Origin: Bibersteinia trehalosi | Lineage (GTDB): Bacteria > Pseudomonadota > Gammaproteobacteria > Enterobacterales > Pasteurellaceae | DNA: 64,000 nt | Assembly (NCBI RefSeq): GCF_004346205.1 | Contig: NZ_SMAM01000001.1 | Coordinates: 310,001-374,000 of the forward strand | Direction of reading: 5' to 3' | Shown here: positions 25,735 to 28,001 of the stretch, in pieces | Layout of the letters: each line of letters opens with the position of its first letter | Position numbering within the stretch: the stretch's first letter is position 1 | Notes under the pieces: generated by a model | The model's database searches: none | Seen by the model: the letters and a program-made list of their open reading frames with translations, nothing else | Told to the model about the DNA's origin: nothing | Program-made: the position numbers and the translations under genes

Positions 25735-25824
25735 TTTTATACTCTCCTCAATATAGCAAGCGGTCGAAATTTAATGAAAATCTGCAAAAAATTTACGCAT
25801 TTAATTCAATAAATAAAATAATTT

Positions 25825-25840
25825 TGTGAGCTTATTCTCA
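25825..25840. promoter_or_regulatory. Possible CRP site upstream of mlc-like gene
   Basis: TGTGAGCTTATTCTCA matches the CRP half-sites TGTGA-N6-TCACA with one mismatch, about 98 bases upstream of the regulator start. E. coli mlc is itself CRP-controlled, which makes the site plausible but unproven. Confidence 0.4.
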
Positions 25841-25937
25841 TAATTGATGTAAAACAGTTGCGATTAGCAATTTTACCTTCAAAATAAAGAAATTATCTTC
25901 TGGAGCGCTAAACACGTTCCTTATAGGAGTATTATCT

Positions 25938-27140
25938 ATGAAAATTGCATCACCAGAATATCGTTATCAACATTTAGGTCGCGTTTATCGATTAATTGAA
26001 CAATTTGAGCTGATTTCCCGAACAGATTTAGCCAAGCTATCTGGATTTGCACCAGCCTCTATGACAATGCTAACTAAGTTGTTGATTGAGAATCAATTTA
26101 TTATAGAACGCACATCTCAAAATTTAGCATCGCGGGGACGTCCAGCAGTAGGATTATCACTCTCCCCTTTCCATTGGGCTTTACTTTGTTTAACCGTTTC
26201 AAGCGATAAGGTAACAGTTGCATTATGCCAATTAAATGGCTCACCTATTACTCAAGAAACATATTCTTTTAGTGAGCAAGATTATGAACAACTTTCCTTG
26301 TTTATTTTGCAAAGTTTGCAACACTTTATACAGCACAATGCTGTTGAAACCGATAAACTTTTTGCGGTATCTGTAAGTGTAGTTGGGAAAATTAATGCAA
26401 CTAAAGACACCATTGTACAACTCGGACACAAAGCTCTCACTTGCGAACTAAAAAGTACTTTAAGTTCTCTATTTAGCCAGCCAATATTTATTAATGAACA
26501 TTTCCAACTTTGGTTTTTGGCCGAATCTACACTGGGCAATCTTATTAGCGATGATGATGTGATCTATTTACAATTAGATAATGATGTCAATTTAAGTGTA
26601 TTACTAAAAGGAGCTTTATTACATCAAGATGAACATAAGCGCATGAATGTAGATAAAATGCTAATGCCTCAGTTCCCATTAAGTGATGAAATTGGTGCGG
26701 AATTGCCGCTGCCGGATCGCTATCAACTCAAAAATCAAGTGACATTCCCTGCTCTTCTACCTTTAATTGATCGCTATCTCCCTAATGCTTTTAATACAAG
26801 CCAAGAAAAAATAGATTGGTTTTGTGAACATGTTGAGCAACAAACACCTAATGCCATCAAAATTCTTGAACATATTACGGATAATCTTGCTTATATGTTA
26901 ATGAATCTTATCAACCTGTTCTCTACTCCAAAAGTGATGATCAATTCACCTCTGCTAAGGATTAAACCGTTTTTATTTACTCTACTACACCAAAAACTAC
27001 ATAGCCAAAGGCTACTTGGTAATATCAATGTTGATCTCGTTACTAGCCAATATGATTGGGATAGTGCATATATTCCTGCTGTTGCGATTAAACTTGGATT
27101 ATATGAAGGTACTCTCTTAAAACACTATATCCGCTTTTGA
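25938..27140 (+). CDS. mlc: Degenerate Mlc/NagC-like ROK transcriptional regulator
   Basis: The 400-aa protein has an N-terminal helix-turn-helix close to Mlc (VYRLIEQFELISRTDLAKLS, then APASMTMLTKLL, 16-48) and the SRGRPAVGLSL linker. A ROK-like body follows. The ROK zinc motif (GHxxxxxxGxxCxCGxxGCxE) is absent, as are the DNxxxA and glycine-rich sugar/ATP motifs, so it should not bind metal or sugar like E. coli Mlc. The next gene is bioD2, the neighbour of mlc in E. coli too, which supports orthology. In E. coli Mlc represses PTS genes and is sequestered by EIICB-Glc; whether that holds here is unknown. Confidence 0.75.
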   Translation: MKIASPEYRYQHLGRVYRLIEQFELISRTDLAKLSGFAPASMTMLTKLLIENQFIIERTSQNLASRGRPAVGLSLSPFHWALLCLTVSSDKVTVALCQLNGSPITQETYSFSEQDYEQLSLFILQSLQHFIQHNAVETDKLFAVSVSVVGKINATKDTIVQLGHKALTCELKSTLSSLFSQPIFINEHFQLWFLAESTLGNLISDDDVIYLQLDNDVNLSVLLKGALLHQDEHKRMNVDKMLMPQFPLSDEIGAELPLPDRYQLKNQVTFPALLPLIDRYLPNAFNTSQEKIDWFCEHVEQQTPNAIKILEHITDNLAYMLMNLINLFSTPKVMINSPLLRIKPFLFTLLHQKLHSQRLLGNINVDLVTSQYDWDSAYIPAVAIKLGLYEGTLLKHYIRF

Positions 27141-27281: not shown

Positions 27282-28001
27282 ATGGCTTGTTTATTTATTA
27301 CTGGAACAGACACTAACGTTGGTAAAACCGTTGTCACGCGAGCACTATTGCAATTACTTTCTCTCTATAATATCCCTATTGTAGGATACAAACCTATTGC
27401 CTGCGGGGGCGATGACTCTTTGCCCAATGAACCTCATCCTGCTGATTATGCCTGCGAAGATAATAGTGATGTGTTAGTCATTCAAAATAGTTGTCCACAC
27501 AATGTGCAATATAAAGAAATCAATAGCTACTCCTTTATTCATTCGAGTACTCCCATCTTTGCAGCATTAGATGCAGTACATAGCATTGCAGTCGATAAAC
27601 TAAATACCGATCTCAAGCGTTTGAGTAAGCGCTATCAAAATGTATTAGTAGAAGGCACTTATGGTTGGCTTACGCCTATTAATAAGGATGTGAGCTTTGC
27701 AGACTGGGTGAAAGAGAACCAAATGCCGGTAGTATTGGTTGTTGGCATCAAAGAAGGTTGTGTAAATCATGCACTGCTTACCGCAGAAGCCATTAAACAA
27801 AAAGGGTTGAATTTGGTCGGATGGGTCGCTAATCGGGTAAATCCAGGATTACGCCATTATGCAGAATTAATTGAATTACTAAGTCAAAAAATAGATGCTC
27901 CGCTGTTAGGCCAACTACCCTATATTTGGCATCCTGAACAAAAGGAGTTAGCGCATTTCATTGAAAATCCAGAGCCGCTATTGCATTATTTCCATAAATA
28001 A
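27282..28001 (+). CDS. bioD2: Dethiobiotin synthetase, BioD2 (YnfK) type
   Basis: A P-loop ATPase that closes the ureido ring of dethiobiotin from DAPA, CO2 and ATP. The 239-aa protein begins FITGTDTNVGKTVVTRALL with the P-loop at 8-15. The stretches VVLVVGIKEGCVNHALLTAEAI and GWVANRVNPGLRHYAEL match E. coli BioD2 (YnfK) closely and are not those of BioD1. No other bio gene is nearby. It lies 141 bases after the Mlc-like regulator and ends at a bidirectional terminator. BioD2 activity in vivo is poorly defined, so biotin synthesis is the family expectation. Confidence 0.88.
   Translation: MACLFITGTDTNVGKTVVTRALLQLLSLYNIPIVGYKPIACGGDDSLPNEPHPADYACEDNSDVLVIQNSCPHNVQYKEINSYSFIHSSTPIFAALDAVHSIAVDKLNTDLKRLSKRYQNVLVEGTYGWLTPINKDVSFADWVKENQMPVVLVVGIKEGCVNHALLTAEAIKQKGLNLVGWVANRVNPGLRHYAELIELLSQKIDAPLLGQLPYIWHPEQKELAHFIENPEPLLHYFHK

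Follow-up and report, generated by a model that had tools for sequence, protein, structure and literature searches.

A gene at positions 25938-27140 on the forward strand of the analysed stretch of Bibersteinia trehalosi DNA (64,000 nucleotides, hereafter the window) encodes a regulator that resembles Mlc in its DNA-binding part and lacks the zinc site of the ROK family. This raises the question of whether such a protein still functions and, if so, which genes it regulates and what signal it reads. An earlier reading of the letters alone (the sequence-only reading) had left two alternatives, a protein working by a different signal or a decaying regulator.

The open reading frame was confirmed to be intact, as had been claimed, with an ATG start, 400 codons and no internal stop, and it was the sole match of its kind in the genome at E 0.001. 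The protein scored 49.4 bits with the Pfam ROK profile against a gathering threshold of 22.9, which places it in the ROK family. Among the curated NCBIfam models, the best score was obtained with Mlc (181 bits; cut-off 530), and NagC gave 127 bits. Four other zinc-less members scored 188-200 bits with the Mlc profile, also below the equivalog cut-off of 530, and the Mlc profile exceeded the NagC profile in all five zinc-less proteins scanned. These cut-offs are narrow for Pasteurellaceae, because a scanned Pasteurellaceae NagC misses its own (568 vs 650). The best solved relatives were V. cholerae 1z05 (E 2.7e-36) and E. coli Mlc (3bp8, 9srt and 1z6r), and both 1z05 and E. coli Mlc could be aligned over nearly the full length of the window protein. 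The Mlc assignment of the sequence-only reading held.

The helix-turn-helix (residues 17-51; 25986-26090, forward strand), with limits set by eye, was placed by aligning the protein with E. coli Mlc and with rows from Pasteurellaceae. Residues 21-35 formed the most conserved 15-residue window of the orthologues (0.37 bits), and the DNA-binding part is well kept, as had been stated. It is followed by the linker R66-G67-R68-P69 (26133-26144, forward strand), which retains the Mlc-type RGRP found in 77 of 78 zinc-less rows, so that the description of helix-turn-helix and linker as Mlc-like also held. The RGRP linker has a role in Mlc specificity. In the 11 NagC rows of the alignment, one from E. 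coli and ten from Pasteurellaceae, the corresponding positions read G, G, R and R.

The zinc-motif residues H247, C257, C259 and C264 of E. coli Mlc aligned with K240, I252, A254 and L258 of the window protein, in agreement with the reported absence of the CxCGxxGCxE site. The expected place of the ExGH motif and the zinc loop is residues 237-260 (26646-26717, forward strand), and ExGH is lost as well. The former catalytic segment NEHFQLWFLAESTLG (residues 186-200; 26493-26537, forward strand), one of the most conserved body windows, carries His188 at the position of the catalytic Asp195 of E. coli. The further claim that the sugar-kinase motifs are missing was accurate for ExGH and the catalytic Asp, but the missing DxGxT nucleotide motif is no loss of the Pasteurellaceae lineage; because E. 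coli Mlc and ten Pasteurellaceae NagC also lack DxGxT, its absence from the window protein is uninformative. The telling losses are the zinc site, ExGH and the catalytic Asp. An AlphaFold2 model built from nine sequences reached a mean pLDDT of 61 and a pTM of 0.45, with pLDDT below 50 at residues 190-208 and 216-242; because of this low confidence no claim is made about a pocket, and the top Foldseek matches of this poor model (1z05, 5f7q and 3bp8; TM ~0.3) back the fold alone.

The gene bioD (dethiobiotin synthetase; 27282-28001, forward strand) begins 141 bp past the end of the regulator gene, in the same orientation, and is a neighbour in common with E. coli, where bidA lies downstream of mlc. 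The bioD2-type neighbour had been pointed out before for the window, and a same-strand bioD at a distance of at most 180 bp was found at 68 of 77 orthologue loci in addition to it. The mlc-bioD order was present in 5/5 genomes of family f18 and absent in 2/2 genomes of family f10. Gene order favours an Mlc origin.

Next, 140 Pasteurellaceae genomes were searched with the window protein, and 88 gave a match. An orthologue was found in 79 genomes, as an open frame in 78 and with an internal stop in one, and none was found in the remaining 61. The 78 intact orthologues span 27 of the 43 Pasteurellaceae genera; left out of this set were L040, the broken copy of [Haemophilus] ducreyi, and L099, one distant ROK protein. 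In [Haemophilus] ducreyi (G070), the bioD adjoining the interrupted gene (loci L040/L038) matches over just 125 amino acids, so that both genes look broken, and PTS_EIIB is also absent from this genome.

Neither the zinc motif nor ExGH was present in any of the 78 intact orthologues. C257 and C264 were retained in none of them, C259 in 2 and H247 in 10, and the catalytic Asp position was occupied by His or Tyr in 77 and by Ser in one. The whole zinc motif was found in 10/10 Pasteurellaceae NagC and in both Mlc and NagC of E. coli, and it is kept by the Mlc/NagC in 22 genomes from other families of the order, read among more matches (26 rows, L130-L155, four of which are the same place twice). 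The loss of the zinc site is family-wide and old, beyond the single protein of the window. In the tree, the 25 zinc-less rows formed one side of a branch with a stem of 1.97 changes per site and a support of 100/100; the tree is unrooted and by itself leaves the choice between an origin from Mlc and one from NagC undecided. One Pasteurellaceae NagC, L093 of G096, is diverged (39.7% identity to E. coli NagC, compared with 50-55% for the other nine; end branch 1.02) and keeps the zinc motif.

If the regulator were decaying, its body would be drifting and the helix-turn-helix would survive by chance. Such a process could account for the identity of only ~25% between the clade and E. coli Mlc, the long stem, the broken copy in [Haemophilus] ducreyi, the 61 of 140 genomes with no orthologue, and the weak conservation of the zinc-loop region (residues 229-265, 1.90 bits; body mean, 1.75 bits). 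However, the purifying selection that the sequence-only reading had proposed to look for across Pasteurellaceae was detected. The median dN/dS was 0.057 over 28 pairs (range 0.013-0.219, the highest at a dS of only 0.024), calculated from 31 pairs after setting aside one with saturated dS and two holding the window protein. The body itself (residues 79-400) gave values of 0.019-0.316 in the 29 pairs with finite dS. For the lineage of the window, the comparison with its nearest relative (66% identity) gave the sole finite estimate, 0.171 at a dS of 1.64, dS being saturated against L005. A ratio near one, named beforehand as evidence against function, was thus seen neither in the clade nor in the window lineage. 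Within the body, residues 182-200 (0.95 bits) and 207-228 (1.01 bits) were more conserved than the mean, and the segments 187-201 and 208-222 were among the most conserved windows. Together with the 78 intact frames and an operator-like dyad that is present alongside the gene (see below), these data rule out decay for the clade and make it hardly credible for the window protein, whose lineage is represented by the single estimate above. The zinc-free Mlc branch is almost surely functional.

A first look at the regions upstream of ptsH in 24 genomes revealed a dyad, ATTTATTTT-N7-AAAATAAAT (18 letters), in six gene-bearing ones. The ptsH promoters of 91 of the 140 genomes, hand-picked among those with a listed position, were then scanned, comprising 28 from the larger subclade of carriers, 22 from the window's subclade and 41 from genomes without an intact gene. 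Among these 41 are G070, with its broken gene, and G005, in which the absence of the gene may be a gap because the assembly is 81% complete. The ptsH gene of G022 was not found by the assumed gene order and was located by direct search instead, and G115 and G120, which among the matches listed have HPr domains inside longer frames only, stayed outside the scan. The dyad scored at least 16/18 in 27 of the 28 larger-subclade promoters (range 16-18), each with p < 0.01 against 300 dinucleotide shuffles, and the 28th promoter, that of G133, contains a perfect dyad with an N6 spacer; since six of the 28 had served to define the motif, the held-out count is 21/22. The same score was reached in none of the 41 genomes without an intact gene, where G030 and G137 attain 15/18. 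Counted by genus, the dyad was found in 15/15 genera of the larger subclade versus 0/18 genera with genomes lacking an intact gene, although neither related genomes nor genera are independent in these counts.

The left half ATTTATTTT was present without the right half in G022, G030, G031, G097 and G137, all of which lack the gene. In G022 the right half is gone, and the four scanned congeners that carry the gene (G014, G017, G019 and G021) score 17/18, a pattern suggesting that the operator decayed once the regulator was lost. In G030, G031, G097 and G137 the left half-site may double as an element of the core promoter. When one mismatch was allowed, a genome-wide search found a site in 69 of the 140 genomes, none with more than five, and 8 of the 69 belong to the 61 genomes without an orthologue; a reversed control pattern was found in 26/140 genomes. 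In larger-subclade genomes with a single site, that site was, among the places listed, the ptsH one in 13/14. The exception was G035, whose genus uses the AATTATTTT form. This form, which is nearer to the E. coli ptsH operator, was also observed in the ptsH promoters of G034, G037, G132 and G133 (genera g10 and g40), the four scanned from the two genera where PtsG and the zinc-free Mlc coexist.

The dyad is placed after a TTGATT-N17-GATACT-like promoter (TTGC in genus g5), read by eye. A CRP-like site precedes it, with an exact TGTGA located 65-71 bp before the dyad in 18 of the 27 promoters and TGTGC/TGTGG-like sequences in the other nine. Lying at or just past the expected start, the dyad has a position that suits a repressor. 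Scored in the form AWTWATTTT-N7-AAAATWAWT, the E. coli promoters that we take to be Mlc targets reached 17 (ptsH), 16 (ptsG), 16 (manX), 15 (malT) and 13 (mlc) of 18. An Mlc-type operator at PTS genes was found at ptsH of the larger subclade, but not at ptsH of the window species, where the best dyad scored 12/18 with a shuffle p of 0.95, no better than chance.

The same operator could also be read as a NagC site, the clade then being a diverged NagC copy. Mlc and NagC sites are very similar according to the account in PMC5432517, the unrooted tree does not choose between the two origins, and the bioD order is absent in both f10 Mlc genomes. Nevertheless, the family possesses a separate zinc-bearing NagC, with the identities to E. 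coli NagC given above, whereas the zinc-less proteins have RGRP instead of GGRR, score higher with the Mlc profile, and adjoin bioD. Moreover, the dyad was present in all seven carriers without NagC (once as N6) and in none of six genomes with NagC and without the zinc-free gene, NagC presence being judged only by second matches to the window protein. The dyad follows the zinc-free Mlc gene, not NagC. Identification of the window protein as NagC was rejected, as it lacks the zinc site and the GGRR linker and scores lower with the NagC profile than with that of Mlc; a NagC-type regulator is a very improbable explanation.

In the window's subclade, the ptsH dyad scored at least 16 in 3/22 promoters, at least 15 in 9/22 and below 15 in 13/22. 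A related site was noticed before the regulator gene itself. In the window, the candidate operator ATTTAATTC-N7-AAAATAATT (25799-25823, forward strand) scores 17/18 in the form ATTTwyTTC-N7-AAAATAAwT of this subclade and 16/18 in the AWTWATTTT-N7-AAAATWAWT form. All 32 own-gene promoters of the subclade scored 15-18/18 in the former, a form read from these same promoters. The site was compared with shuffles keeping base composition alone, and its distance varies between genera. It abuts a CRP-like site (25823-25843, forward strand), which is a conserved block in a ten-promoter alignment and was assigned to CRP by eye; because of this contact, the right half of the own-gene site may be kept for CRP. 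The own-gene site is thus a candidate operator only, and for the window species these promoter comparisons make autoregulation a reasonable guess. The window genome contains three one-mismatch dyad sites compared with one for the reversed control. For the larger subclade, the first scan of own-gene promoters showed weak or no sites.

Other PTS genes provided further candidate targets. In 4/4 genomes of genus g16, the mannose EIID gene is preceded at ~2.07 kb by one site, which by comparison of distances is ~250 bp before the expected manX start. The manX promoters of 14 other carriers scored 17 (G096), 16 (G010, G046 and G098) and 12-15 (the other ten); no contrast with gene-less genomes is claimed for manX, because in the four of these the match was only distantly related and lacked a proper start. 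A 16/18 site in the AWTWATTTT form is present in six ptsG promoters. A mannose-type EIID gene at G042:C3:566876-567682 contains three internal stops and is probably a pseudogene.

The proteins that could release the regulator were then searched for. MtfA was found in 0/140 genomes, E. coli serving as the positive control, and PtsG exceeded the cut-off in 10/140, including seven of the 78 carriers. According to the account in PMC3901232, Mlc of E. coli is bound by PtsG in its dephosphorylated state and has no known small inducer; the complex of Mlc with EIIB has been solved (3bp8). Release by PtsG or MtfA would not be available in most carriers. Of the two alternatives initially posed, decay was rejected for the clade as described above, and a different signal gained indirect support from the lack of MtfA, the scarcity of PtsG, and the changes at F136, ExGH and the catalytic Asp. 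F136 of E. coli Mlc, presumably an EIIB contact, corresponds to Phe in just 8 of the 78 orthologues.

Release could still be brought about by the EIIB of a PTS permease as in E. coli, with a permease that differs by lineage. HPr was found in all 140 genomes, every carrier has at least one searched permease family, and PtsG itself occurs in the seven carriers mentioned. On the other hand, no permease family searched was present in every carrier: PTS_EIIB was missing from G082, EIID from G012, G020, G069 and G089, and PTS_IIB from G083, some of the assemblies consisting of many contigs. With the F136 position so rarely Phe as well, we regard a mechanism of this kind as improbable. A small-molecule sensor is another explanation, in which the former sugar cleft has been rebuilt for a new ligand. 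The above-average conservation of residues 182-200 and 207-228 and the new residues in these former catalytic segments, such as Phe189 (78/78) and Glu187 (71/78), point in this direction, yet the conservation may be structural, the model is of low confidence at residues 190-208 and 216-242, and E. coli Mlc works without a small-molecule inducer (PMC3901232, as far as that account goes). A ligand sensor appears unlikely, though worth keeping in view. The conserved former catalytic segments with new residues and the poorly kept zinc loop fit a changed input.

Taken together, these results suggest, with a probability of roughly 70%, that the Mlc of Pasteurellaceae is a zinc-free regulator of PTS genes whose input has changed, its output being supported best in the larger subclade. 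Such a protein would be a DNA-binding regulator with a ROK body devoid of the zinc site, ExGH and the catalytic Asp, and its helix-turn-helix and RGRP linker would bind an AT-rich Mlc-type dyad. In the larger subclade, where the dyad stands just past the predicted -35/-10 elements and the CRP-like site of ptsHI, we infer that binding would repress transcription; manXYZ, and in the window's subclade the regulator's own gene, may be further targets. Judged from promoter comparisons, the output side appears well supported in the larger subclade, whereas its support in the window species is thin. As for release, a protein partner other than PtsG, including a permease differing by lineage, would be the favoured route, although its chance falls short of even; release through the regulator's own level in competition with CRP is possible but doubtful, and release by a metabolite in the rebuilt cleft is the unlikely route considered above. 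With respect to history, the chances are evenly balanced that an Mlc lost its zinc and its PtsG tether, kept its operator and its target ptsHI and had its cleft rebuilt to read another PTS state, before or during the spread of Pasteurellaceae.

E. coli Mlc is reportedly compromised when the cysteines of its zinc site are changed (PMC5458393, citing earlier work), yet an entire family maintains an Mlc free of zinc, and selection on it is strong. This makes it testable how a ROK regulator operates without the metal and what tells ptsHI the sugar status where PtsG is missing. If the proposed exchange of input is true, the protein would have taken on a new input without giving up its old output. 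The finding also bears on a published virulence regulator, the Mlc that promotes leukotoxin activity in A. actinomycetemcomitans and is probably of the zinc-free type. In that species, mlc (D7S_02207) and nagC are distinct, and the mlc mutant had less leukotoxic activity; for the nagC mutant, the part of PMC5432517 dealing with it gives no significant change in ltxA expression, although the mlc strain is termed a nagC mutant in one sentence of the same article. An Mlc is also named in an A. pleuropneumoniae array paper and in a Haemophilus (now Glaesserella) parasuis genome paper, and the passages concerned make no mention of zinc. Searches of the open literature brought up no title or abstract opening on a zinc-less site or a ptsH operator in Pasteurellaceae, most subscription papers being outside this scope.

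Several known systems may be compared with the zinc-free Mlc. The ROK motifs, including the zinc motif CxCGxxGCx(E/D) and the histidine of ExGH, are listed in PMC5458393, by which zinc-less ROK kinases also exist. NanK of F. nucleatum and of L. monocytogenes shares with the window protein a ROK fold without the cysteine motif; however, both are kinases, and the remaining ROK motifs are retained in F. nucleatum NanK (PMC5458393, in the section on these proteins). NagC has a related helix-turn-helix and a similar class of operator, but it keeps the zinc site, has the GGRR linker and occurs as a separate orthologue in many genomes with the zinc-free gene. Mlc of A. actinomycetemcomitans, which is probably of the zinc-less type, is likewise a Pasteurellaceae Mlc separate from NagC and acting in vivo, whereas it is described as activating the leukotoxin promoter in the relevant part of PMC5432517, where zinc goes unmentioned. 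Compared with E. coli Mlc (DgsA), the zinc-free protein is without the zinc site, ExGH and the catalytic Asp and lives with PtsG in few carriers and MtfA in no genome searched, while the helix-turn-helix, the RGRP linker, the whole-length ROK homology, the bioD2-type neighbour and the operator type are the same, and the two would appear to share ptsHI, and perhaps manXYZ, as targets.
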